Positions 6,029-20,301 of a stretch of DNA of 38,056 nucleotides are shown here, piece after piece; positions within the stretch are counted from its first letter, which is position 1; every line of letters starts with the position of its first letter. The notes below the pieces were generated by a model. That model made no database searches. It saw only the letters and a list, made by a program, of their open reading frames with translations, and was not told where the DNA came from. The DNA comes from Paludibacteraceae bacterium (GTDB taxonomy: Bacteria > Bacteroidota > Bacteroidia > Bacteroidales > Paludibacteraceae). The position numbers and the translations under genes were made by a program. Location of the stretch: contig JAKSNY010000018.1 in NCBI GenBank assembly GCA_024399495.1, positions 1 through 38,056 of the forward strand, in the 5' to 3' direction.

Positions 6029-6724
6029 TTATGCATTAAAATATGTAGAGAGAATGGTTTCCGCCTCTCCGTTTTTGTTGTCTATATCATTTACAATCCT
6101 TGCTTTTTCCATAAGCAGCACTCTTGAACATAGGTTTGATATTTGGCTTATGCTGTGACTTGAGACAATTACAAGAGCACCTCTTTCCGCCTCTGCCTTA
6201 AGTAAACGGTGAACTTCAACCTGTGATGACGGGTCCAGAAAGTTGAACGGCTCATCAAGTATTATGACATCGGGGTGGGAGATAATGGCTGATGCAATAC
6301 CCACTTTCTGCCTGTTGCCGGACGATAGGGTGGAGATGTATTTTTTGCTACCCCAAAGTTCATCTGTAAAGAGTTGCTTGAATGGCTCTTTGTACTCTGT
6401 GCGTAGTGTTTTGTCAATTTTATAAGCGTCACAAATAAAGTCGAGCAGTTCATCGGGGGTATAAAAGTCAATCAGAAAACCGCTGTCAAGGAATGAACCT
6501 GTAATGGTTTTCCACTTCTCTCCTTTAGAAACATCTTCTCCGTCAATTGTTACGTATCCGCTATCCGCCTTTAGCAAATCAAGCATAAGACGCATCAGCG
6601 TTGTCTTGCCGGCTCCGTTGTTGCCCACCAATCCTATAAGTTCCCCTTTGTTCGTATTGAGGGATTCCACATCTACAGCCGTCAAGCCGTTGAAACTCTT
6701 TTTTAAATCTTTTATCTCTATCAT
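6029..6724 (-). CDS. ABC transporter ATP-binding protein
   Basis: The 231-residue protein is a single nucleotide-binding domain. It has Walker A GNNGAGKTT near residue 34, an ABC signature LSSGNRQKVGIA near 137, Walker B VIILDEP near 155 and the H-loop histidine in VIVSSHSIS near 190. The overall pattern is that of exporter ATPases that pair with a separate membrane subunit. The partner is the permease ending five bases upstream at 6729. No substrate can be read from the sequence. Confidence 0.95.
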   Translation of the reverse strand: MIEIKDLKKSFNGLTAVDVESLNTNKGELIGLVGNNGAGKTTLMRLMLDLLKADSGYVTIDGEDVSKGEKWKTITGSFLDSGFLIDFYTPDELLDFICDAYKIDKTLRTEYKEPFKQLFTDELWGSKKYISTLSSGNRQKVGIASAIISHPDVIILDEPFNFLDPSSQVEVHRLLKAEAERGALVIVSSHSISQISNLCSRVLLMEKARIVNDIDNKNGEAETILSTYFNA

Positions 6725-6728
6725 AGTG

Positions 6729-8171
6729 TTAAAATTTATCTCTGTATATTGAGAGGTATTTGTATTTCTTCCTTAAAAATCTATCTGCAATGAGTTTTGT
6801 CCATAATGGGTATGTTAAAATAAATGCCACCCCGATGGCTAAGGAAAATGTTATAGCCGTTTTTTCTGAAAGAAGTCTGAAAACCAGCGTGGGTATAACA
6901 ATCAAGGGGGCAAGTGTGCATAGCTTTTTGGCAAAATTGTGTTGGTTGTTGTCGTTTAGTTCCAAACCCTTGCGACTCCAATCAACTTTTTGAAAAATGA
7001 AAGTTGATGCAAATAATGTGTAACAAGCCATTGGACCGGCAGAAAACAGTGCTATTGATATCACCAGCCATTCGTTTTGCGGATTCAATATGCAATCTGT
7101 TATAAGAGCGATGGAAATATAAATAATGTTAATGAAAAAATCTGTCCTTACAATTTTTGAGTAATCAATATTCAGGGTTGACAGTCTATCAAAACAAGTG
7201 GATTCCATATTGAATGTATGGGCGCCAAGTACCAATAAATAAAGCATGTATAAAAAAATGAACATTGACAAGTCGTGTACAGAATGCATTCCGGACATAA
7301 AAGAGGGTCCATAACGTCCGATTAGGGGGAAACCTATACACACAATTAGTGATGTTATTCCGTTTGTCGGTGAATTAAACAGCATTCTTATTCTCAATTT
7401 TAACAGATGCGAATCACCTAAAAGACCGGATAACCGCACACCCCAACCTGATGTTGTGCTTTTCTTCTCCAATATAGCATATCTCTCCGCTCCGACAATG
7501 TAAATGTATAACTCTTTGATTACAAAAAACATAACAACAGATACCAATAGTAAAAGTGATGGGTGATATTCACTTAATGCCCTGATTGGTAGTGTGGCAA
7601 AACCAGTGTAACATGATATAAATGCCCAAGCAGTATATGCTATTGTTATGGTTAATAATAGAGAAAAACCGTATGGCAGATATTTCAGTTCATGTACAAT
7701 AATGGAATTGATTATTGACCAAACATAAAAAATGATAAGCCAGGCAAATGTAGCCGTGTATCCGTATGTTGGAGCAATAAGAGAGAAACAAGGTCCTAAC
7801 ACTAAAAGAACCATGCTTAACACCTCAATAGAGCAGCATAAACGAGCGAATGAAAAAGTAATGTAACCTCTTCTTTTTAACGGCAATGTCATATACGTTA
7901 CCATGTGATTGTCTATGCCTTTGCAAAAAATCAATTTAATTATAAAATCGAGTGCTATAATAACCGGTGCCGCAATTGTAAAAGCATCTAATGGGAGTAT
8001 ATCTTCAATGTAGTCAGTGAATATGGCGAGAGACGAAAATCCTAAGCCTATCATATACATGGCGATAAAGACTGATATCCAGCCATCAAATGTGTTAGAC
8101 CGGTTTATGCTTTTTGTGCGGTTGCTTCTAAACATAGGCAAATATATTGCCTCAAAATAGTGTTTAATCAT
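6729..8171 (-). CDS. ABC exporter membrane subunit, DUF5687-like
   Basis: The open frame reaches 8189, but the ATG at 8171 (MIKHYFEAIYLPMFRS) has a strong AAGGAGGT five bases upstream, so I use that start; the product is then 480 residues. It contains about twelve hydrophobic segments spread along its length and no nucleotide-binding motif. It is followed at once by an ABC ATPase gene, which is the arrangement I associate with the Bacteroidota DUF5687 permeases. It overlaps the end of the HTH regulator gene by eight bases, suggesting translational coupling. Membrane character is clear; the DUF number is from memory. Confidence 0.82.
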   Translation of the reverse strand: MIKHYFEAIYLPMFRSNRTKSINRSNTFDGWISVFIAMYMIGLGFSSLAIFTDYIEDILPLDAFTIAAPVIIALDFIIKLIFCKGIDNHMVTYMTLPLKRRGYITFSFARLCCSIEVLSMVLLVLGPCFSLIAPTYGYTATFAWLIIFYVWSIINSIIVHELKYLPYGFSLLLTITIAYTAWAFISCYTGFATLPIRALSEYHPSLLLLVSVVMFFVIKELYIYIVGAERYAILEKKSTTSGWGVRLSGLLGDSHLLKLRIRMLFNSPTNGITSLIVCIGFPLIGRYGPSFMSGMHSVHDLSMFIFLYMLYLLVLGAHTFNMESTCFDRLSTLNIDYSKIVRTDFFINIIYISIALITDCILNPQNEWLVISIALFSAGPMACYTLFASTFIFQKVDWSRKGLELNDNNQHNFAKKLCTLAPLIVIPTLVFRLLSEKTAITFSLAIGVAFILTYPLWTKLIADRFLRKKYKYLSIYRDKF

Positions 8172-8382
8172 TCTGACCTCCTTTCTCATAACTTAAAATA
8201 TCTGATGGCTGACAGTCAAGTGCCTCACACAGTGCCTCAAGTGTACTGAATCTGACGGCTTTAGCCTTGCCTGTTTTCAGAATTGAGAGGTTTGCTTGCG
8301 TAATACCTACTTTATCTGCCAGTTCTCCAAGCGATATCTTGCGCTTGGCCATCATTACGTCAAGATTAACTACAATAGCCAT
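8164..8382 (-). CDS. Small Cro/CI-type helix-turn-helix regulator (YozG-like)
   Basis: The 72-residue protein is little more than one HTH domain. The segment KRKISLGELADKVGITQANL holds the helix-turn-helix, with recognition helix ITQANLSILKTG. It ends in CQPSDILSYEKG, typical of YozG-like XRE regulators. It is preceded by a DUF2975-like membrane protein gene, a common partner in Firmicutes and Bacteroidota, and followed with overlap by the ABC permease gene. It probably regulates its own operon; no operator could be identified. Confidence 0.92.
   Translation of the reverse strand: MAIVVNLDVMMAKRKISLGELADKVGITQANLSILKTGKAKAVRFSTLEALCEALDCQPSDILSYEKGGQND
8176..8183 (-). promoter_or_regulatory. 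Strong Shine-Dalgarno deciding the permease start
   Basis: The minus strand reads AAGGAGGTCAGAATG. Such a full anti-16S match is unusual in this AT-rich, mostly SD-poor sequence, and it fixes the start at 8171 rather than 8189. Confidence 0.8.
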
Positions 8383-8392
8383 AATTAATCAA

Positions 8393-9088
8393 TTATATTG
8401 TAAGGTCTTGGTCCTCTTTAATAGAAGTTGCAAGACGCAATATTTCATTCATAACAAGTATTCCCATTCCAAATAATATGGATTCAAAATGAAGCATAGG
8501 AAATGTTATCTCATAACCTTCAAGCACTATTTCTGACCTTGCCTTAAGCACATTATATATAGGCGTTGCCACTTCCCAAATGCCAATACATATCATTAAG
8601 ATGCCCATCCAAAGTAGGCGTCTGCTATTGGTTTTGTCAAAAATAAGACTAATTGAAAAAGAACGGATAAGTTTTATAAATAGAATAAAGAATGTTATGA
8701 TTAACACAAACACAACTAATATACTTATAATGTCTATTATTTCGTCACTTAAGTGTGCTGAATTAGTGTCTGAAACCTTTTTGATAGTTTGGATGGTTAC
8801 TCCCTCTTCCTCGGTTGGTCTGATTCTGACCTTTTCGCCTGTTAACGAGTTTTGTGTGTCTGTAACTATCTTTGTGGCAGTGGAATCTGTTGTGGGAATC
8901 AGTTGTACACAGTAGGTTTGTATAATCTCTTTTGAATTATCTGTGCATACAAATAAACCTGAGTGACCTCTTGAAATTTCAAAGTAGTTACTAAGGTAAA
9001 CAAACGGATAACAAAAGCAGTATGTTAATGAGGCTATTAAAAGAATACTGCATAAAATTTTAAAAGTGAGAGTTGTCTTTGTTTTCAT
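8393..9088 (-). CDS. DUF2975-like membrane protein
   Basis: The 231-residue protein has four hydrophobic segments (near residues 8-32, 120-142, 157-175 and 198-215), with a polar domain of about 80 residues between the first and second. The last three helices, with MLHFESILFGMGILVMNEILR near the end, resemble DUF2975. The polar loop is longer than I expect for the family. It lies ten bases before the HTH gene, matching the usual DUF2975-HTH pairing, so a membrane sensor or partner role for the regulator is plausible but unproven. It is the first gene of the operon, directly behind a good promoter. Confidence 0.75.
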   Translation of the reverse strand: MKTKTTLTFKILCSILLIASLTYCFCYPFVYLSNYFEISRGHSGLFVCTDNSKEIIQTYCVQLIPTTDSTATKIVTDTQNSLTGEKVRIRPTEEEGVTIQTIKKVSDTNSAHLSDEIIDIISILVVFVLIITFFILFIKLIRSFSISLIFDKTNSRRLLWMGILMICIGIWEVATPIYNVLKARSEIVLEGYEITFPMLHFESILFGMGILVMNEILRLATSIKEDQDLTI

Positions 9089-9123
9089 ATTGCATTATGA
9101 TTGTTATTTTTTGTTTCACGATG

Positions 9124-9153
9124 CAAAGATAAAACATATTTATTGAATTACAA
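9124..9153 (-). promoter_or_regulatory. Promoter of the DUF2975-HTH-ABC-M16 operon
   Basis: On the minus strand TTG (9153-9151) and TATCTTTG (9131-9124) are 19 bases apart, an exact match to the Bacteroidota promoter pattern. The ATG at 9088 is about 36 bases downstream. This appears to be the only good promoter for the seven genes down to 1702. Confidence 0.65.
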
Positions 9154-9201
9154 AATAAATTTATTGAAAAACGATAAAAATTTAATGAATGGCAATAAAT
9201 T

Positions 9202-10425
9202 TTACTTACGAAGATAGTCATACATGGTTAGGATATCTTTCCATCGGGGGTCTGAATGAAGATTCTCCAAATCGGGGTTCCCAATTATATGTTCCAGTGT
9301 CTCTGGTTTTTGCTCTAACCTAAGATATTTATATAGCCTCTCATACGCTAAATCAATTTTTCCTGTTTTTGAAGCGCAGACAGCGTACAGATACCAGCAG
9401 GCGGGGACAACTTGGCTTTTCATACAGACCGCTATCTCCAAAAACTTTTCTGCTTTGGAATAGTCTCCACTATAAAACGCATTCTCTGCTAATTTGGTTA
9501 TTTTGTTGTAGTTCTCCTTATTGTATAATATATCTTCAGCGCCATCCGGGACTATTTCGTAATCAGACGATTTAAATCTTATAATTTCAAGCAGAATGTT
9601 CCACCTGCGATCAGAATGAAGAGTTAACAAATCAGGATCTCTCTCCATCAAGTAACTGCTCTCCCATTTCTTATCTGTCTTTATTTTCTCTAAAAGACGT
9701 GCAAAAGCCAAATCCTTTTTTCCGTTTAAGGCGGCACAACATGCCGCTTGGTAAAGGATGGCACCTGGAACTGAGTTCTTTATATCAAGTGCGGCAGTAT
9801 AAAAAGAGTCCGCTTCTGAATAATACTCATTACAATATGACATGTTTGCCTTTGAAACCAAATCATTAAATTCAGCATCCTCTGCGTTTGTAGTGGAACT
9901 GTTCACTATGTTAAAGGTGTTTATTGTGTATTTATCAAGGAACGCACACAAAGTATAAACATTGCCGTCTGCCGTTATATCTCCATGTGTGTTACTATAG
10001 CCTACGGACACTCCGTAATGTTTGTCACCTGATTGAATTATATATATTACGGCATAACTGTTTTCCCCGATGTAAATCCTATCTACACATAATACCCTGT
10101 GGTGCTTTCTGTTATAAATAAGATTACGCCAAATCATACTTTTAGGCTGACCATAATAATATTCTGAATACTCCGTTGGAACCACCCCTTTTTCAAAGTA
10201 TGAGGTGTGAGTTCTGCCTAATGAATCTATGATAATATCCGGTACCCATTTTTCCCAGCCTTTTGTTTTAGCTAAAACAGTGAATTGGTCATACCGCTTC
10301 TCCACTGACTCTACTTTATACGGCAAATCTGCCAATGCGTCTTGAACAAGAGCGTCACCAGATTTTACCGCAGCGCAGCCTGTCAGCACAAAGACTGCAA
10401 ATACAACAATACACGTGCGTGACAT
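9202..10425 (-). CDS. Lipoprotein with TPR-like C-terminal repeats
   Basis: The 407-residue product has a lipoprotein signal ending VLTGC (Cys17). Residues about 190-407 contain helical, TPR-like repeats. Two copies of a block are clear: one ends in RDPDLLTLHSDRRWNILLEI and the other in GNPDLENLHSDPRWKDILTM, each preceded by an LAFARLLEKI/LAYERLYKYL helix. This TPR-like ending is common in Bacteroidota exported proteins that scaffold protein complexes. The N-terminal 180 residues are not recognised. It starts two bases after the TonB-C gene stop and is the last gene of the sigma factor operon. Confidence 0.85.
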   Translation of the reverse strand: MSRTCIVVFAVFVLTGCAAVKSGDALVQDALADLPYKVESVEKRYDQFTVLAKTKGWEKWVPDIIIDSLGRTHTSYFEKGVVPTEYSEYYYGQPKSMIWRNLIYNRKHHRVLCVDRIYIGENSYAVIYIIQSGDKHYGVSVGYSNTHGDITADGNVYTLCAFLDKYTINTFNIVNSSTTNAEDAEFNDLVSKANMSYCNEYYSEADSFYTAALDIKNSVPGAILYQAACCAALNGKKDLAFARLLEKIKTDKKWESSYLMERDPDLLTLHSDRRWNILLEIIRFKSSDYEIVPDGAEDILYNKENYNKITKLAENAFYSGDYSKAEKFLEIAVCMKSQVVPACWYLYAVCASKTGKIDLAYERLYKYLRLEQKPETLEHIIGNPDLENLHSDPRWKDILTMYDYLRK

Positions 10426-10427
10426 AC

Positions 10428-10835
10428 CTATAATTTGAATTTAATAGGAAGTAAGTATTTTACCGCCACTGTTTTTCCTTTTTGTGTTCCCGGCTTCCAA
10501 TCAGGCATTGCAGAGATGACTCTTACCGCCTCATTGTCTAAAGATTTTTCAACTGATTTTACAACCGTAACATCTTTGATTTTTCCAGTTGAGCTGACTA
10601 CAAACTGACAGATTACTCTTCCCTCTATTTTTTTTTCTTGTGCATCTTTGGGGTATTTAATGTTCTGCGATAACCATTTATTCATAGACTCAAATCCGCC
10701 GGGAAATTCGGGCATAGCCTCAACTACATTATAAATTTCTTCACCGGGTTTTGTCTGATTCTCTTTGACAGATTGAGCAAACGCTGTTAAAACAGATGTG
10801 GCAATAACTAATGCCAGAACAAATAATTTTTTCAT
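10428..10835 (-). CDS. TonB C-terminal domain protein, exported
   Basis: The 135-residue protein has a signal peptide (MKKLFVLALVIATSVLTAFA) followed by a TonB-C domain, from about residue 40 to the end. Family features include MPEFPGGFESMNKWLSQNI, the GRVICQFVVSSTGKIKDV strand pair and AMPDWKPGTQKGK. It has no proline-rich spacer and no retained membrane anchor. It is therefore not a full energy transducer; many Bacteroidota encode such soluble domains. It is the third gene of the ECF sigma operon. Confidence 0.9.
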   Translation of the reverse strand: MKKLFVLALVIATSVLTAFAQSVKENQTKPGEEIYNVVEAMPEFPGGFESMNKWLSQNIKYPKDAQEKKIEGRVICQFVVSSTGKIKDVTVVKSVEKSLDNEAVRVISAMPDWKPGTQKGKTVAVKYLLPIKFKL

Positions 10836-13110: not shown

Positions 13111-13172
13111 AAAACAACCTTTGCATCATTACAGAGAACCCTTCTATAAGACTTGATGATGCAAGAGTTTTT
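13111..13172. terminator. Bidirectional terminator between the AAA ATPase and C39 ABC exporter genes
   Basis: A perfect 9-base inverted repeat, TTGCATCAT (13121-13129) and ATGATGCAA (13156-13164), has a 26-base loop. A T run follows on each strand. The right arm lies within the last codons of the ABC gene (LLHHQVL). Confidence 0.65.
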
Positions 13173-15300
13173 GAAATTCCCCGTTTGCTTGTTTCAGCGA
13201 GTCAAAGGTTCCCTCTTCAGTAACTACACCCTCCTTTAAGACGATTATTTTATCTGCCTGTTGTACGGTGCTTAATCTATGTGCAATAACAATTATTGTC
13301 TTTCCTTTTTCTTTGAGATTCAGAATGACATTTTGAACAAATTGCTCTGATTTGGAGTCAAGAGAAGATGTGGCTTCGTCAAGAATAAGTACATCCGGTT
13401 CTTTATATAAGGCTCTCATAATTGCCAGACGCTGTTTTTGTCCACCAGAGAGTTGAGAGCCATTCTCTCCAACGTTTGTTTCATATCCGTCTGGTAGAGA
13501 ATTTATGAATTCGTTCATCCCCAATAGGTCAGCTAAGTCTATAATCTTCTTCAAATCAGGTTCATATTCACCAATTGCCACATTCTGAAGAATAGATCCC
13601 GAAAATAAGCTAATCTGCTGTGGAACAGCACAAATCCTTTTTCTAAGACTTTCATTAGAAAGAAATTTTATGTCATTTCCGCCGATAGTGATTTTCCCTG
13701 TATTGATGGGATATAGATTTTGAAGTAGTGATGCAATGGTTGTCTTTCCGGATCCGCTCTCTCCAACTATTGCGGTCATAGTGTTTTTGTTGATTTTGAG
13801 ATTTAAATTTTCAAAAACATTTTTTCTTGTTCCGTAAGCAAATGAAACATTTTTGAATTCTATATCACCAACCATTTCCTGTGTTATGTCTATTTTTCCC
13901 GAAATCTGCTCCCTTTCTAAATCCATTATTTCAAAAAGTCTGTCTGCGGCTATTGTTGCACTTCTTACTTCTTTGTTTGCGGAAATAATGCTTGCCACAG
14001 GTCCTGTAAGGTAGCCTATTAAGGCATAAAAAGACATTAATTCGCCAGCAGTAATGTTTCCGTCTAAAACATAATAGCATCCAACCCACATTAGCACAAT
14101 GGTGAAAATAGATGTAATAAATCCAGTGCTTGTTCCTGTGAATATAGCATTATTGGCAGAACTGCAAACTTTATACATCAAGGCTATGAATTTGTTTTCT
14201 GTTTTCTCATTATAATATTCTTCCACTCCAAATTGCTTGATTGTCTTGATTCCATTTAGAGATTCAACAAGTTGCCCCTCTAAATCAGCGGCTTTTTCCA
14301 TTACCTTACGTTCAACTCTCTTATTCCATTTGTCTGTGATTAGGAATATTACAGCATAAAGAGGTATAATAACAAGGGCAATTAACGCAAGTCTCCAATA
14401 GTATGCAAACATCAGACAAAAAGAGAATATCAAGATTAACACATTGACTAATAGGTTGATGGCGGTTTGATTGATAAAATTTCTAATATTTGCGGCATCT
14501 CCTATTCTTGATGTTATTTCACCAATACGCATTGTGTCAAAAAATGTTTGGGGTAATCTTAACAGATGGTGATAATATCCTAGAACTAATTCGCAATCTA
14601 TCAGTTGCCCCGTTCTGAGTGCAAGTAAACTTTGAAATACGCCAATTAACATTCTTAGAAGTAGAATCACAATCATTGAGATGCTTAGGATGTTAAGAAG
14701 GTTTGTGTTTCCTCCCACCAATACGTAGTCTGTTATCTTTTCTATATATATTGATGTGGAAAGTCCAATTGCGGTATATAAGACAGCACCAATGAATGAT
14801 TGAATCATAACGGCACCGTGTGGTTTTATCAGTTTTGCAAATCTATTCCATACAGATATGATTTCATTGTGCGGAATTGTTTCCGTTTTTGGTTCTAAAA
14901 GGATCAGAACTCCGCTCCACTCGTTTGCAAAATCATCAATTGGAGTTTTTTTTATGCACCCGTCTTCCGGATCCATAATAGATATGGTGTTTTTGTTGAT
15001 TTTATATATGACAACGTAGTGGTGTAATGGCGTGTCTCCTATCTTGCGTATAACATGGGCTATGGCAGGTAGCGGTATAACATGAAGAGCGTCTTTATCT
15101 CCCTTAACTCCCTTTGCTTCAAATCCAAGTTCGGTTGCCGCCTTTATCATACCCAGTACATTAGTCCCTTGCCTGTCAGTGCATGCAAGTTGTCTTATTT
15201 TTGCAACAGGTATTCCTATGTTATAGTGTGCGGCAACAGATGACAGACATGCCGCTCCGCAGTCTGTTATATCTCGTTGTTTGATATTAATTTTGAGCAT
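13144..15300 (-). CDS. C39 peptidase-containing ABC exporter of double-glycine peptides
   Basis: The 718-residue protein cleaves a leader after Gly-Gly and exports the core peptide across the inner membrane. Residues 1-137 form an intact C39 peptidase: oxyanion Gln8, catalytic Cys14 (TDCGAACL), His94 (PLHHYVV) and Asp110 (SIMDPEDG). Residues about 150-440 form the six-helix exporter membrane domain. The nucleotide-binding domain has Walker A GESGSGKTT near 510, signature LSGGQKQRLAI near 617, and Walker B VLILDEATSSLD near 638. It overlaps the HlyD gene by 14 bases. The likely substrate is the precursor at 19356-19547, since no other GG peptide is seen. An outer membrane channel is not encoded here. 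Confidence 0.96.
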   Translation of the reverse strand: MLKINIKQRDITDCGAACLSSVAAHYNIGIPVAKIRQLACTDRQGTNVLGMIKAATELGFEAKGVKGDKDALHVIPLPAIAHVIRKIGDTPLHHYVVIYKINKNTISIMDPEDGCIKKTPIDDFANEWSGVLILLEPKTETIPHNEIISVWNRFAKLIKPHGAVMIQSFIGAVLYTAIGLSTSIYIEKITDYVLVGGNTNLLNILSISMIVILLLRMLIGVFQSLLALRTGQLIDCELVLGYYHHLLRLPQTFFDTMRIGEITSRIGDAANIRNFINQTAINLLVNVLILIFSFCLMFAYYWRLALIALVIIPLYAVIFLITDKWNKRVERKVMEKAADLEGQLVESLNGIKTIKQFGVEEYYNEKTENKFIALMYKVCSSANNAIFTGTSTGFITSIFTIVLMWVGCYYVLDGNITAGELMSFYALIGYLTGPVASIISANKEVRSATIAADRLFEIMDLEREQISGKIDITQEMVGDIEFKNVSFAYGTRKNVFENLNLKINKNTMTAIVGESGSGKTTIASLLQNLYPINTGKITIGGNDIKFLSNESLRKRICAVPQQISLFSGSILQNVAIGEYEPDLKKIIDLADLLGMNEFINSLPDGYETNVGENGSQLSGGQKQRLAIMRALYKEPDVLILDEATSSLDSKSEQFVQNVILNLKEKGKTIIVIAHRLSTVQQADKIIVLKEGVVTEEGTFDSLKQANGEFQKLLHHQVL

Positions 15301-16438
15301 TGGAAATAATTTTAGGATTGAACCAATCGTCTATTTTATCGTAAAGAAGTTGCCATAATGTTCTTTGTGTTAATGTAAATCGACCTGTTAATGTCATCCC
15401 TTTCCTCAGATTTGCCACGTAGCCGTTTTTGAGGCATAGTTGCATAGAATGCAATTTGCAACGGACAAGAAAGAATGTTTGATTTTCTGTGGTTCTTGGA
15501 TTGTTGTCTATCTCAATAACGGTCGCTTTGCCAAGTCCCCACTGATTGTAGTCAAAAGCATCGTATTGTACAGAGACATTTTGTCCCGTAAAAATATATC
15601 CTATATCTTTGGGACTTACATAACATTCTACTATAAGTTTGTCGTCCGGTGATATTTCAACCAGTTGCTGTCCAGAATATACAAATGTTCCGTCATCAAA
15701 ATTGTATAAACAAATAGTTGTCCCTGATATTGGGGCTGTAATGTAATAGTGTTTTCTCTCTGTTTGTAACCTATCAACATTTGCTGTTGCTGATAGTAAT
15801 TGGTTTGTTATGTTGATTTCCTCGTCACGCCATAAAAACAACTTGTTTTCTTTAAAAGATTCCAAGGTGGTTAAGGCTGATTCATACTGATCTTTGAATT
15901 GATGGTACTCAACGTCAGATATAGCCCCCATATCAAAAGCGCGTTTGTTGCGGTCAAACTCTCTTTTGGTTTGTTCTGCTTTTAATATTTTATCATCAAG
16001 AGCCTTCTTATAATCAAAAAAGGCTTGCTGGTATTTGTGCGTGTATAGTACATCTGATTGTTCGGTGCCTTTACATAAAATATCAAGATCATGTAAACGT
16101 TCAGAGTAATCCTTTACAAGTTCTTCCTGCATCTGCAGTTCTGCGAGTAAAGCATGGTCATCAATAATTAACAATGTGTCACCCTCTTTTACTTGCTGAT
16201 TGTTATGTAAATTGACGTATGTGATTTTTCCTCCTACTACGGAAACTATTTTATTGTTTTCGGTAATTGAGCGTATTATTCCTCTGCTTTGGCTGGTAAT
16301 ATCCACTTTTATTAAAGGAAGTGAGATAAACAAGATTATCACCGCTGATAAAAAAATCCAGTAAATAGGATGTGATTCTTTACCGTATTTTGATTTGAAC
16401 GATTGATATGTGTTTAGAATTTCAGAGGTGAATTGCAT
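15287..16438 (-). CDS. HlyD-family periplasmic adaptor of the peptide exporter
   Basis: The 383-residue protein has a short cytoplasmic N-terminus and one membrane helix at about residues 27-46 (WIFLSAVIILFISLPLI). A biotinyl-lipoyl-like strand follows (VNLHNNQQVKEGDTLLIID), then a long coiled coil from about 85 to 220 and the returning half (YYITAPISGTTICLYNFDDG). That is the HlyD/CvaA membrane fusion layout. It links an ABC exporter to an outer membrane TolC-type channel, which must be encoded elsewhere. The next gene, overlapping by 14 bases, is the C39 ABC exporter. It lies 62 bases after the glycosyltransferase-C39 fusion gene. Confidence 0.94.
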   Translation of the reverse strand: MQFTSEILNTYQSFKSKYGKESHPIYWIFLSAVIILFISLPLIKVDITSQSRGIIRSITENNKIVSVVGGKITYVNLHNNQQVKEGDTLLIIDDHALLAELQMQEELVKDYSERLHDLDILCKGTEQSDVLYTHKYQQAFFDYKKALDDKILKAEQTKREFDRNKRAFDMGAISDVEYHQFKDQYESALTTLESFKENKLFLWRDEEINITNQLLSATANVDRLQTERKHYYITAPISGTTICLYNFDDGTFVYSGQQLVEISPDDKLIVECYVSPKDIGYIFTGQNVSVQYDAFDYNQWGLGKATVIEIDNNPRTTENQTFFLVRCKLHSMQLCLKNGYVANLRKGMTLTGRFTLTQRTLWQLLYDKIDDWFNPKIISNAQN

Positions 16439-16500
16439 GTTTTGCTATATTGCATTTGTAGGTTTCTTTATAAGAGAGAAATTCAATTGTGATGATATGA

Positions 16501-18384
16501 TTATTTTAAAATTATACAATATCCACTCCATACTTTTTGTAATATTGGCAATGGGTATGTTTCATCTACATTTGTGTCTAAGTTAAATAATGTCACATTT
16601 TTGTTTGAAATTTGTTTTATAATAACATACGAAAATTGTAAACTGAAATTTAATAGTGCAATTACTGGTAATGGAACTGATGATAACGTTTCATAAGAAA
16701 GTTCGGCACCAAACGAGGAAACCCCAACATTTTTTAATGCATTAATTATATCTAATAGAGAAATTTCTTGTCCTTCCTTTTTTTTAAACGAATCTAGATT
16801 AATCTCACTTGCTGAAATATAATTATTTGTGATTAAGTGTCTGATAATATTACACACTGTCAGTTGTTGTTGTTTTATATTGGTAATACTATAGTTGGAG
16901 TAACTTTGAATGCATATATCTTTAGCATTTTTTTTAAAGAAAATTAGTCCGAATGTATACCACAATTTGATTTGCAGGGAGATTAAATCTTTATATGACT
17001 TGTCCTTAAATTTTTTAATTAATTCTTTTAACTTTATGGGATGTGTCTTTAGGTATTCAAGTAAATTAAACATATTTGGAGATAACCAGCAATTATCTGG
17101 AGATCCTGTGTATACATTACAATAACAAGTATAATATCTTCTTTCTGGATAAATATCGGCTTCTGATTTTATGTTTCCAGCAATCAGTCGACTCCAGTTG
17201 TATTTGGTTTGAAAATAATGGCAATGTTCAGAAACTTGAATATACATATTTTCAAAGTCAGATTCTTGATATTTTTTTGAATATGTTGGAAAAATGTATG
17301 ATGATGAAGCCTTTGTTGTCATTGTTGAATAAAATGTATTTGTCTGTGATTCAATTTCCTCGATTTCAGGCATATATTTTTTTGAAGGTATTTGAAACCT
17401 ATGAAAGATTTCTAAAACTGTTTCTGATAATGTAAAATTTGAATAATTATTAAATTGATCACTTTCAGTTTTGTTTAATTGTGTGAAATAATGATGTTTT
17501 ACATTGTTCTTATGCAGTATGTAACAAACCTTATCCCATACGGTGGGATATTTATCTTTTAATACAAAAGAAATGAAATTATTCATTAGCATTGATTGTT
17601 TGGCTCCACCTAAAACGTGCGTTAATTGTCGTTCCCATGGAACATCTTCAATAGTGGTGTATATACGTAATTCTTTTGAAGTGAGTAATCTGTCCTTGCT
17701 AATTGTATTCACATTTTCTTTTTCTTGTAAAGATAAACAATATAATGAATATTGCTCAATAAACGTATTGATATTTTCGTTAACGTTGGATAACCTAGAC
17801 CAGATGCTTTTATTTCTGAAATAGAAATTCAATGATTCTGAACTATATTTATTCAAAAAAGCAGTATTATTACCACCCAATAATCCGGCGTTATATCCAC
17901 TTGGTTCTTTCATTCCGTATTGCATCCATTCTGGTCGGTAGGTATTTGCAACTTTATTGAAATCAAATAAGCAATCTTGATAAGTGTCCCAATTGAATTC
18001 TAAACATTGTGCACATACATTGGAGTGCAAGAAACTTTTTTCTAAAGGTCTCCATAAAAAAACGTCACCGTCAATATGTAGGAATGGTTTTGTTTGAATA
18101 CTATATGTTAAAATTTTGGCGAGAGACCACAATGATGGATCCACATCATTCATCACGCCTTCTTCATGGGTAATATTTATTTTTGTATATGGAATTTCAA
18201 AGGAATCAAAAACTTCTGCACCAATTCGATCTGTATATAATTCAACGGAAGGGAAGAATTGCTTGAGTTGCATACATGATAAAGCCCATGACATCCAATG
18301 TGTTTCTGGTGATAAAAATCCTCCAGTGTTAAGATATGGATTAATATCTTTTTTTTGAAACCAGTACGTTTGTATAATGTTCAT
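16501..18384 (-). CDS. GT-A glycosyltransferase-like protein fused to a degenerate C39-like domain
   Basis: The 627-residue protein has three parts. Residues 1-~300 resemble a GT-A glycosyltransferase: SLAKILTYSIQTKPFLHIDG is followed by DVFLW, giving a D105-G-D107 metal motif, and SGYNAGLLGG comes near 162-171. I associate it with DUF6734-like proteins, from memory. Residues ~418-485 (LSPNMFNLLEYLKTHPIKLK and following) look like a PqqD/RRE-type winged helix. Residues ~500-627 align with the C39 domain of the neighbouring exporter: IKQQQLTVC matches IKQRDITDC, keeping Gln505 and Cys511, and PLPVIALL matches PLPAIAHV. The stretch from Ser585 to Trp619 aligns without gaps to His94-Trp128, giving Ser for the catalytic His and Asn601 for Asp. 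The domain is probably a non-cleaving leader binder. Its ATG overlaps the CPBP stop (ATGA). The DNA is visibly more AT-rich than in the housekeeping genes. Confidence 0.85.
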   Translation of the reverse strand: MNIIQTYWFQKKDINPYLNTGGFLSPETHWMSWALSCMQLKQFFPSVELYTDRIGAEVFDSFEIPYTKINITHEEGVMNDVDPSLWSLAKILTYSIQTKPFLHIDGDVFLWRPLEKSFLHSNVCAQCLEFNWDTYQDCLFDFNKVANTYRPEWMQYGMKEPSGYNAGLLGGNNTAFLNKYSSESLNFYFRNKSIWSRLSNVNENINTFIEQYSLYCLSLQEKENVNTISKDRLLTSKELRIYTTIEDVPWERQLTHVLGGAKQSMLMNNFISFVLKDKYPTVWDKVCYILHKNNVKHHYFTQLNKTESDQFNNYSNFTLSETVLEIFHRFQIPSKKYMPEIEEIESQTNTFYSTMTTKASSSYIFPTYSKKYQESDFENMYIQVSEHCHYFQTKYNWSRLIAGNIKSEADIYPERRYYTCYCNVYTGSPDNCWLSPNMFNLLEYLKTHPIKLKELIKKFKDKSYKDLISLQIKLWYTFGLIFFKKNAKDICIQSYSNYSITNIKQQQLTVCNIIRHLITNNYISASEINLDSFKKKEGQEISLLDIINALKNVGVSSFGAELSYETLSSVPLPVIALLNFSLQFSYVIIKQISNKNVTLFNLDTNVDETYPLPILQKVWSGYCIILK

Positions 18385-19274
18385 TTTAAATTTAATTTAA
18401 CTAATATGTCAGATAATGTCCAATTGTATTTCTTGCAGCATGCCAGCAATATTCCAAAATCAATAATGCAAGAAACAATAATTCCAATAATTATTTGATT
18501 CTCATTTGTTGTGTCACATCTGAATATTGTCGGCACATTTGAAAAATCAGAAGTAGGATCTGATAGTAGCGAACATGCAATAATATTATTGAAAAAATGA
18601 CAACTCCACGACAGTTCTATTCCATTGTCTAAAATTGTGATGATCCCCCAAACCATTCCCGAAATAAAATAAACAACTAAATGTGTGATATTGTTTTGCA
18701 CTGGCGTGTTCTCAATATGCAAATATGCAAAGAGAATGGATGATAAGGTTACTATAATCCATCTTTTCTTACAATATAAACCACAAAATTGAAAAAAATA
18801 CGACCTGACAATTATTTCTTCAAACAATGTTTGAAAAATAAGGAGAAATGCACATGTAAAAAAATACGGAATAAAATCCCTAAGACACAAAACAAATTTA
18901 GTATCGGGATCTAAAATACTGCTTATAATAGATATAACAAAAAGAATACAGTATATTGTAAAAGTGAACCCAATGCGGTTTGCTCTAAAATGTGAGGTGG
19001 TGTTGATTAAATGCCATATTTTTCCATTGTGAATTGCCTTAAAGTTAATAAGAAATGCTATCAATGATATCACAAATGTTGTTAAATTGTATATGGCGTT
19101 TTGTTCTACAAGTAAAACTATATCATCTTTAGCAGGTAAATCTATGCCTGTTGCAAAGCAAACAAATAATGCTATTATAGCAAAAATTATTAGAAAAATT
19201 AAAGAACAGAATACAGTCAGAACAAATCTCCAAAGTTGATTTTTGTATAATGTGGCATTATTTATGAAGTCCAT
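18381..19274 (-). CDS. CPBP family intramembrane metalloprotease
   Basis: The 297-residue protein has about seven or eight hydrophobic segments. It carries the three CPBP motifs: EExxxR at E152-E153-I-I-V-R157, FxxxH at F182-AYL-H186, and HxxxN at H226-FFN-N230 (CHFFNN). Bacterial CPBP proteins in bacteriocin loci, such as the PlnI and Abi types, are linked to self-immunity or peptide maturation. It is the first gene after the precursor peptide, behind a hairpin, and is translationally coupled to the glycosyltransferase fusion gene. Immunity or processing of the peptide is the likely role here, by context. Confidence 0.9.
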   Translation of the reverse strand: MDFINNATLYKNQLWRFVLTVFCSLIFLIIFAIIALFVCFATGIDLPAKDDIVLLVEQNAIYNLTTFVISLIAFLINFKAIHNGKIWHLINTTSHFRANRIGFTFTIYCILFVISIISSILDPDTKFVLCLRDFIPYFFTCAFLLIFQTLFEEIIVRSYFFQFCGLYCKKRWIIVTLSSILFAYLHIENTPVQNNITHLVVYFISGMVWGIITILDNGIELSWSCHFFNNIIACSLLSDPTSDFSNVPTIFRCDTTNENQIIIGIIVSCIIDFGILLACCKKYNWTLSDILVKLNLK

Positions 19275-19290
19275 GTTTTTTGTTTTTAAT

Positions 19291-19345
19291 AAAAAAGAAG
19301 GGTGACTATAAACGTTTGCTGTATGTTTTTGTCACCACTCCTTTC
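19291..19345 (-). terminator. Hairpin between the precursor and downstream genes, likely attenuator
   Basis: On the minus strand GGAGTGGTGAC (ending at 19331) and GTCACCCTTC (19306-19297) form a stem with a loop of about 24 bases, followed by six T. It lies 11 bases after the precursor stop. It would end most transcripts after the peptide gene and let fewer continue into the export genes. Confidence 0.6.
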
Positions 19346-19355
19346 GCTCTGAATA

Positions 19356-19547
19356 TTAACTACGTGATGTAAAGAATTCGGTTGCTATTTCATATGCCAT
19401 ATATCCGTATTCAATAACACGAGGTCCGTACTTTTTCACTAATTCTAAAGCTTTCATTCCGAGTCCTATCCAGTTTGCTCCGCCATAAATACTCTGACAC
19501 TCTTGAAGTGATAACTCTTTCACTCCATAATAATTTAGTTGTTTCAT
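19356..19547 (-). CDS. Double-glycine leader peptide precursor (bacteriocin-like)
   Basis: The 63-residue product has a 23-residue leader, MKQLNYYGVKELSLQECQSI followed by YGG. It fits the Bacteroidota double-glycine leader pattern (ELS...E...I.GG). Cleavage after Gly23 would release a 40-residue core that starts ANWIGLGMKALELVKKYG and ends in FFTSRS. The core has no cysteine, so disulfides, lanthionines and S-glycosylation are excluded. It has five aromatic or hydroxyl Tyr/Trp positions, two Thr and two Ser near the C-terminus, and an amphipathic helix-like middle. The only cysteine (Cys17) is in the leader. It heads the locus with the CPBP, glycosyltransferase-C39, HlyD and C39 exporter genes. 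Small size makes family naming unsafe. Confidence 0.88.
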   Translation of the reverse strand: MKQLNYYGVKELSLQECQSIYGGANWIGLGMKALELVKKYGPRVIEYGYMAYEIATEFFTSRS

Positions 19548-19936
19548 TTTTGTTTGAATTTTTAATGTTTTTCCTACTCTGTTTAAGGATTTTCGGAGTC
19601 TTCCTCTTCCGGAATATTCAATTGTTTTTTTTTTGTGTAAGCTTTTTGACCAATAGTTCGTTAAATTTTGTAAAATATTATTTAACGCACTACTCGTTTA
19701 TGTTGACCTTTCGATTACTCCAATTATACTTTTGCAAAAGTTATTTCGCTTGCAAATGTAGGAATAAAATCAATGGATAATTAAATCAGTAGTGAAGATA
19801 GTAGTGAAAATGTGCTTGCTAAAAATCATAAATACTTGATAGTCATAATGTTTAGTGCAATGGGGGGGGTAAAAAGGTAGTGAATATGTGCAAAAAATGT
19901 AAATATTCCCCATATAGTGTCAACTTTTTTGTAAGT
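19548..19936. other. Intergenic region upstream of the peptide precursor
   Basis: This 389-base AT-rich stretch has no convincing gene. It contains a weak TACATTTG box on the minus strand (19760-19753), a perfect palindrome CTTTTGCAAAAG at 19729-19740, and a run of eight G at 19862-19869. Two imperfect copies of GTAGTGAAnATGTGC lie at 19801-19815 and 19877-19891. It may hold the control region of the peptide locus. Confidence 0.5.
19753..19760 (-). promoter_or_regulatory. Weak candidate -7 box for the peptide precursor
   Basis: TACATTTG on the minus strand fits TAnnTTTG, but no TTG stands at the right distance upstream. The leader would be about 200 bases. It is the only match I found in the region. 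Confidence 0.25.
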
Positions 19937-20052: not shown

Positions 20053-20301
20053 CTAATAGATATTATAATAAGATTTTTTCCCTAAATCAACATTGAATGA
20101 AGATGATTCAGCAACGTATTCTGCATGTCCTTCCAGTTTCCAGTTGTGAAACAGTTGTTTATGAATAAAATTAAATATGCCTAATTCAGACATATCACTT
20201 ATGTGCGTCATTTCATGAGCAATAGAGGATGAAAGTGGTCTTTGAACAAGACGGTCGTCCATTTTATCTTGTAGATTGTTTTCTAAATCGGCTGGAGACA
20301 T
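20053..20301 (-). pseudogene. Metallopeptidase-like fragment with an HExxH motif
   Basis: The 82-residue frame contains SSSIAHEMTHISDMSE, an HExxH zinc motif. About 30 residues on is WKLEGHAEYVAES, which resembles the second-glutamate EGxAEY motif of peptidase MA-like gluzincins. The piece is far shorter than any complete enzyme of that type and has no signal peptide. Its ATG lies only 33 bases after the pgk terminator, leaving no room for a recognisable promoter. I read it as a truncated remnant, though a very small intact gene linked to the peptide locus cannot be excluded. Confidence 0.5.

Follow-up and report, generated by a model that had tools for sequence, protein, structure and literature searches.

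A predicted peptide modification and export operon in a Paludibacteraceae bacterium with a DUF6734 protein fused to a degenerate C39 domain

The window analysed here is a stretch of 38,056 nt from a Paludibacteraceae bacterium (assembly GCA_024399495.1, contig JAKSNY010000018.1, positions 1 to 38,056), whose genome is 2.08 Mb long and 82.5% complete. It contains five genes, all on the minus strand and running from 19547 down to 13144, which encode a precursor peptide with a double-glycine (GG) leader, a CPBP protein, a fusion of a DUF6734 domain to a C39-like domain, an HlyD-type adaptor and a C39 ABC exporter (Table 1). An initial annotation, made from the sequence alone, had proposed these genes as a glycocin-like peptide system, and all five are confirmed in position and strand. 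Gene spacing is operon-like: the CPBP and fusion genes overlap by 4 nt, the HlyD and exporter genes overlap by 14 nt, and gaps of 62 and 81 nt separate the remaining neighbours. The precursor was the sole GG-leader candidate retrieved from the window by a GG scan, and its core is free of cysteine, as had been annotated. The exporter scored 547 bits against TIGR01193 (cut-off 523.85). When the CPBP protein was compared by phmmer with open reading frames (ORFs) of at least 100 aa in the DUF6734 loci, it matched the window alone. We take it to be a candidate for an immunity or processing role, as presumed for the CPBP family.

Table 1. Coordinates of the operon, its protein domains and the upstream RNA element in the window
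Feature	Coordinates	Strand	Description
DUF805b cis-regulatory RNA	19571-19606	-	Rfam RF02914; 41.9 bits, gathering 35.6, E 1e-8
Precursor peptide	19356-19547	-	ORF; 63 aa = 23-aa GG leader + 40-aa core
Precursor leader	19479-19547	-	23 aa, GG type, sequence MKQLNYYGVKELSLQECQSIYGG; Ile-4, Cys-7, Leu-12
Precursor core	19359-19478	-	40 aa, without Cys; sole Ser/Thr are T33, T37, S38, S40
CPBP (Rce1-like) intramembrane protease	18381-19274	-	297 aa; PF02517 E 5.7e-13
DUF6734-C39 fusion	16501-18384	-	627 aa; PF20508 N-terminal, PF03412 C-terminal
Fusion residues 1-287, DUF6734	17524-18384	-	PF20508 E 1.1e-68, 232 bits (cut-off 27)
Fusion residues 385-500, middle block	16885-17232	-	YNW-type motif, alignment A7
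Fusion residues 502-626, degenerate Peptidase_C39	16507-16881	-	C39 profile over 502-626; PF03412 over 519-626
HlyD-type periplasmic adaptor	15287-16438	-	383 aa; PF13437 E 7.4e-13, PF16576 E 4e-10
C39 ABC exporter	13144-15300	-	718 aa; PF03412 E 1.2e-35, PF00664, PF00005

The third gene had been described as a fusion of a GT-A-like and a C39-like domain. The DUF6734 and C39 domains are both present and recurrent, and the description has to be corrected by an additional middle region. This region contains a YNW-type block that is common to the C-termini of unfused DUF6734 proteins. A PqqD-like element considered for it gained no support from hhalign, which gave 0.1% against the N-termini of three M50-type proteins whose PqqD nature was judged by eye, without Pfam support. 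At the level of sequence, the C-terminus is confirmed as a C39 domain. It aligned with PF03412 (E 1.4e-7, 31.8 bits, cut-off 22), and a profile of the five fused C-termini detected in this study matched the C39 domains of exporters (hhalign 97.3%, E 1.9e-11). In the PDB, the same profile retrieved chains of PCAT1, ComA, HlyB and LahT with E-values from 1.5e-8 to 0.052, the individual matches including PCAT1 (E 2e-8) and HlyB 3zua (E 0.038).

The fused C39 domains appear to have lost the Cys, His and Asp triad by which an active C39 peptidase is recognised. In all five, the catalytic His is replaced by Ser, Glu, Lys, Asn or Asp and the catalytic Asp by Asn. The catalytic Cys is Gln or Asn in the joint alignment (Gln in the window protein), whereas the hidden Markov model (HMM) alignment places a cysteine of the window protein at this position; neither alignment retains His or Asp. 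The window domain has probably lost the Cys as well. The initial annotation had called this domain dead, which stands for His and Asp and depends on the alignment for Cys. In contrast, Gln, Cys, His and Asp are retained in all 46 C39 domains (40 distinct proteins, all 40 intact) of exporters of at least 640 aa from the DUF6734 loci fetched. All four are likewise intact in the window exporter, which had correctly been taken as the live C39 protein of the set.

The fusion recurs in other Bacteroidota, among which the same gene set had been proposed for searching. We detected four further fused homologues, two in Bacteroidales (locus L055/L077 of SIG115 and locus L078 from a sheep rumen Bacteroidales) and two in Flavobacterium (L075, F. 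gawalongense; L076, F. taihuense), and the architecture is therefore beyond chance. In a contig collection, relatives were confirmed by an alignment-based scan, and a single-protein scan confirmed none. The pattern matched 239 stretches of the collection, of which 206 encoded a relative; the best 80 of these provided 79 loci. Pfam recognised a C39 domain in four of 100 DUF6734 rows; L078 was added by full-length alignment; neither Pfam nor the C39 profile detected its C39 part, for which the evidence is the match over the full length and the alignment. The five fused members form a single clade with support 100/99 in a tree of 99 DUF6734 domains whose bootstrap was not fully settled. Since this clade spans Bacteroidales and Flavobacterium, the fusion has presumably been retained over a long divergence.

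Three of the five fusions (window, L055 and L078) lie beside GG precursors, so the homologues do not mostly occur without them, a doubt that the initial annotation had raised. The contig of L078 is 6.1 kb long and is uninformative on the presence of an exporter. The two Flavobacterium fusions are instead accompanied by a small non-GG peptide encoded on the other strand, with a common leader (LLQEF.VEELEKRYEF.W) and differing cores. Both loci also contain an ORF related between them and to L011, a locus of the window's own genome (contig C14), together with a protein resembling isoprenoid synthases/cyclases and a weak match to M50. Small non-GG peptides are encoded at L011 10097-10222, L075 8215-8373 and L076 8097-8273. 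They share the leader VEELE[KQ]RYE[FM].W and lie by similar genes and a DUF6734 enzyme, and they are possibly a second class of precursor.

DUF6734 is uncommon. With the fusion protein as a query, matches at E 1e-10 were found in five of 358 genomes of the family, its own included, and the Pfam model scored above cut-off in 8 of 393 genomes sampled from the order and 16 of 395 sampled from the phylum. An origin from a mobile element was considered and rejected: two plasmid records matched DUF6734 alone, and phage records gave no matches.

Where DUF6734 occurs, it tracks peptide export. This was assessed in 94 non-redundant loci, which were selected for DUF6734 content and for which distance inside the same loci served as control; duplicates of seven loci were removed, as was L069, which was too distant. 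A scan requiring GG and four of five residue rules retrieved 58 GG-leader candidates less than 1.5 kb from DUF6734 genes (2.09 per 10 kb), and the subsequent 1.5 kb steps held 20 (0.77), 5 (0.20), 8 (0.35), 2 (0.09), 0 and 0. These counts retain false positives recognised by eye (L076, rhodanese-like; L144, ribosomal-type; L095 8364; L098 5840; L109 1739), and the scan misses peptides in L067 and in the 3856 region of L095. Counts of individual leader residues are biased, because the scan filters on them. A GG candidate lies within 3 kb in 56 loci, a C39 exporter of at least 640 aa is encoded in 41, and 70 have either. All 72 distinct candidate cores contain Ser, Thr or Cys; seven are without Cys, and five are without both Ser and Thr. 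C39-like-VKOR-type proteins are present in 30 of the 94 loci, and the catalytic Cys was absent from all 30 examined. They fall among the mid-size C39 proteins, a set defined by length that is found in 31 loci, 30 of which also match a VKOR protein; in five examples scanned with Pfam, VKOR was detected in all five and C39 in three. Near DUF6734, several loci (L101, L116, L147, L150, L132 and L151) also encode proteins about 200-400 aa long that contain either Gly-Ser repeats or stretches rich in Gly and Ser; these are candidates for larger substrates.

DUF6734 is probably a glycosyltransferase, judging from its motifs and its genomic company. The window protein has all four motifs in the manner of GT8 glycosyltransferases: D105-x-D107, N165-A-G167, E210-Q211 and H256-xx-G259-xx-K262. 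D105, D107, E210, Q211 and H256 are invariant in alignment A2 (99 distinct rows), from which DUF6734 proteins with a domain match below 240 residues or 150 bits were left out. The ordered pattern DxD, NxG, D/E-Q, HxxGxxK, which was composed after viewing the DUF6734 alignment, fits 85 of the 99 DUF6734 proteins and one of 768 other proteins of at least 250 aa from the same loci (one of 711 distinct). That lone background match (L069 12002-13024) is a GT8 protein according to Pfam (PF01501 E 1.1e-23). L069 also encodes two adjacent natural fusions of GT8 to DUF6734 (6598-8604 and 8791-10791; PF01501 E 4.9e-16 and 1e-14), and we observed that these fusions lie near a separate GT8 gene. Six Gly_transf_sug (PF04488) genes, all six confirmed by Pfam, occur in five loci, five of them at most 31 nt from a DUF6734 gene. 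The GT-A activity proposed for the fusion is backed by motif order, by the GT8-DUF6734 fusions and by the adjacent Gly_transf_sug genes, though less firmly than the fusion itself and the degeneracy of its C39 domain; profile similarity was weak and the PDB gave no match, as set out below.

We infer, with a probability of about 0.5, that the operon produces a ribosomally made, glycosylated and exported peptide, and that the C39-like module brings the DUF6734 transferase to the precursor. The DUF6734 domain would be a metal-dependent GT-A-type glycosyltransferase, with GT8 as its nearest family by motif order. In the available part of PMC6363468, leader residues -4, -7 and -12 are described as sitting in a hydrophobic groove of LahT about 20 A from the active site. 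HlyB, as described there, requires its degenerate C39-like domain for substrate recruitment without cutting. The degenerate C39 domain of the fusion could in a similar way hold the leader through Ile-4, Cys-7 and Leu-12 without cleavage and present the core to the transferase, which would attach sugar to at least one of T33, T37, S38 and S40. The peptide would then be handed to the intact C39 exporter, cleaved after GG and released through an HlyD-bridged type I channel, and the CPBP protein might serve for self-protection or further processing.

Several results weigh against this reading. In comparisons with 15 GT32, 10 GT8 (a partial match excluded) and two Caps_synth proteins, hhalign similarity of DUF6734 was weak throughout: P was 0.0081 and 0.0047 for GT32 (probability 4.9 and 7.5%) and 0.032 and 0.052 for GT8 (local-mode controls 0.13-0.47), and Caps_synth also gave a weak result. 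A slightly looser form of the motif pattern fits only two of the 10 Pfam GT8 proteins. The DUF6734 profile had no match in the PDB up to E 10, the window fusion matched no glycosyltransferase family of Pfam or NCBIfam at E 1, and for 100 DUF6734 members no glycosyltransferase appeared among the 25 commonest of the 47 and of the 36 families matched. On the side of the peptide, the precursor had no relatives at E 0.01 among 357 other genomes of its family, so that conservation is unable to indicate a modified residue, and its Cys at leader position -7 is unique among 78 candidates. Neither a GG precursor nor a C39 exporter was found around the fusions of L075 and L076 within the 16.6 and 19.9 kb fetched. 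Finally, 24 of the 94 loci, some of them short contigs, have no near GG candidate or full-size C39 exporter; the Gly-Ser-repeat loci L101, L116, L147 and L150 belong to these 24.

The same observations bear on other explanations. DUF6734 may be a glycosyltransferase that its C39-like domain anchors to the exporter, as a scaffold, without binding the leader. In both the window and L055, the fusion has the exporter and HlyD genes as neighbours, and the degenerate C39-like domain known from HlyB operates within a transporter (PMC6363468, available part), both of which would fit such docking. Loss of the protease residues is compatible with either use, and the two Flavobacterium fusions have no C39 exporter in the regions just given. 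We regard a scaffold as unlikely. Nor does the C39-like part look like a decaying remnant without present function, which we consider very improbable: none of the five clade members has lost it, Lys, Pro, Glu, Trp and Ile each occupy an invariant column and a conserved Asn stands where an active domain has its catalytic Asp, even though the domain is divergent (identity between the window copy and the other four is 21-28%) and that of L078 escapes both Pfam and the C39 profile.

It is also conceivable that the core stays unmodified, as in a class II-like bacteriocin, and that DUF6734 has another target, such as a surface glycan or a different secreted protein, or attaches a group other than a sugar. 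The window core is poor in acceptors and has no Cys, DUF6734 has neither a PDB match nor a paper in the literature searched, and distant DUF6734-like genes stand directly before a core protein of an extracellular contractile injection system (eCIS), where GG peptides were not sought. The tight clustering of GG candidates around DUF6734 in the 94 loci speaks against an unmodified core, as do the adjoining Gly-Ser-repeat proteins, which resemble glycosylation substrates; we consider it improbable. The eCIS observation comes from L046 and L047, in which paired distant DUF6734-like genes precede a HELTH-motif protein, that of L046 being the eCIS core protein (PF13699 E 4.4e-32). These pairs may reflect a use of DUF6734-like proteins outside GG peptides.

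According to the accessible part of PMC12457901, glycocins belong to the ribosomally synthesised and post-translationally modified peptides (RiPPs); they bear sugars on Ser, Thr or Cys, and their gene clusters include C39 transporters. Like sublancin, glycocin F and thermoglycocin, the window system has a precursor with a leader, a transferase-type gene and a C39 exporter, so that a GG-type leader precursor and a C39 exporter occur together, and many DUF6734 loci contain thiol oxidoreductases (the C39-like-VKOR type mentioned above). Unlike them, its enzyme is a DUF6734 protein with a C39-like domain, its host belongs to Bacteroidota and its glycosylation is a prediction. The SunS-like transferase expected of a glycocin, which we take to be of the GT2 type, had no match in the complete Pfam and NCBIfam tables of the window fusion at E 1. 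We do not file the system as a glycocin, because enzyme family, fused domain and phylum differ and glycosylation is predicted only. A glycocin label is not justified, since the fusion matches no known glycosyltransferase family in these databases; the interpretation given in the initial annotation is, as a whole, partly supported.

Other relatives share single parts of the system. The C39-like domain of HlyB is also degenerate and, in the available part of PMC6363468, is described as recruiting substrate without proteolytic activity, but it is joined to a transporter and the window domain to a modification-type enzyme. The DUF6734 match to PF20508 is full length, whereas most members of that family have no C39 domain. 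With GT8 (PF01501), DUF6734 shares the order of the DxD, NxG, D/E-Q and His motifs and natural fusions, but their sequences do not match significantly (hhalign P 0.03-0.05). The closest parallel in architecture is provided by the C39-like-VKOR-thioredoxin proteins, in which a degenerate C39 domain sits on an enzyme of peptide-modifying type beside GG precursors; there the partner is an oxidoreductase and the C39 domain is N-terminal. Such a protein is also encoded in the window's own genome, in a second GG system on contig C22 (L010 2575-11057) with a C39 exporter, an HlyD protein, a Cys-containing precursor and two DUF6734 proteins of 491 and 298 aa. It combines a degenerate C39 domain with VKOR and thioredoxin domains (PF03412 E 1.6e-10, PF07884, PF13462), which makes it more likely that the degenerate C39 domain is a reusable docking part.

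Upstream of the window precursor, a DUF805b cis-regulatory RNA lies in the 5' leader, 23 nt from the ATG. A model trained on 12 examples retrieved 26 hits from 94 sources, 24 of them before the ATG of a GG-type peptide. The distance from the end of the model to that ATG is 7-23 nt, and this holds for 14 of the 16 hits outside training. Covariation was observed in the stem: across 13 distinct stems (three rows without the core motif excluded), 45 of 52 cells were paired against a shuffle mean of 31.3, with none of 10,000 shuffles as high. Three additional pairs between the loop and GAGTA-GGN were formed in 26 of 30 cells across 10 distinct combinations, one of which the pattern had misread; the mean over shuffles was 20.3, and 6 of 10,000 reached the observed value. 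These pairs suggest that the RNA forms an H-type pseudoknot in addition to the single stem of the Rfam model. A phylum-wide search detected the RNA in 62 of 296 genomes. In 29 loci of that search, many kinds of gene were found downstream and GG-type peptides, identified by eye, followed in five, which rules out specificity for GG precursors and identifies the RNA as a general element of Bacteroidota. The ATG lies 19-29 nt past GAGTA in 28 of the 29 loci and 38 nt past it in the remaining one. The RNA was also seen at L083 3933-3967, L104 7190-7221 and in L198-L226; the downstream genes, labelled by eye, encode GG peptides, secreted proteins, a rhodopsin-like protein and an NHLP-like protein.

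Additional observations concern the surroundings of these genes. An 82-aa ORF upstream of the precursor (window 20053-20301, minus strand), with HEMTH and EGHAEY motifs, no Pfam family and stops around it, is a possible remnant of a metalloprotease gene. A Bacteroidota promoter pattern had 10 matches in the window (2.4 expected), none of them on the same strand just upstream of the precursor. L109, in a record titled Lachnospiraceae, and L107 (Bacteroidales) encode the same GG peptide and have DUF6734 matches of equal score, probably owing to a misbinned contig.

No description of DUF6734 or of the DUF6734-C39 fusion was found in the literature searched, most subscription papers lying outside its coverage, and the accessible part of PMC13289728 contains neither the term glycocin nor the term glycosyl. 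We consider it possible, at somewhat less than even odds, that DUF6734 proteins are undescribed peptide glycosyltransferases serving a large unrecognised class of glycopeptides across Bacteroidota, and that degenerate C39 domains serve tailoring enzymes (this transferase and the VKOR-thioredoxin oxidoreductases) as portable modules for leader recognition, much as PqqD-like elements do in other systems. As leader binding and catalysis would reside in a single chain, docking could be tested by removing one domain. If this broader view is correct, DUF6734, now without a known function, would be a peptide glycosyltransferase with its substrates at hand, and a single gene would suffice to trace glycosylated peptides in Bacteroidota. 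Dead C39 domains would then provide a testable means of bringing enzymes to a double-glycine leader.

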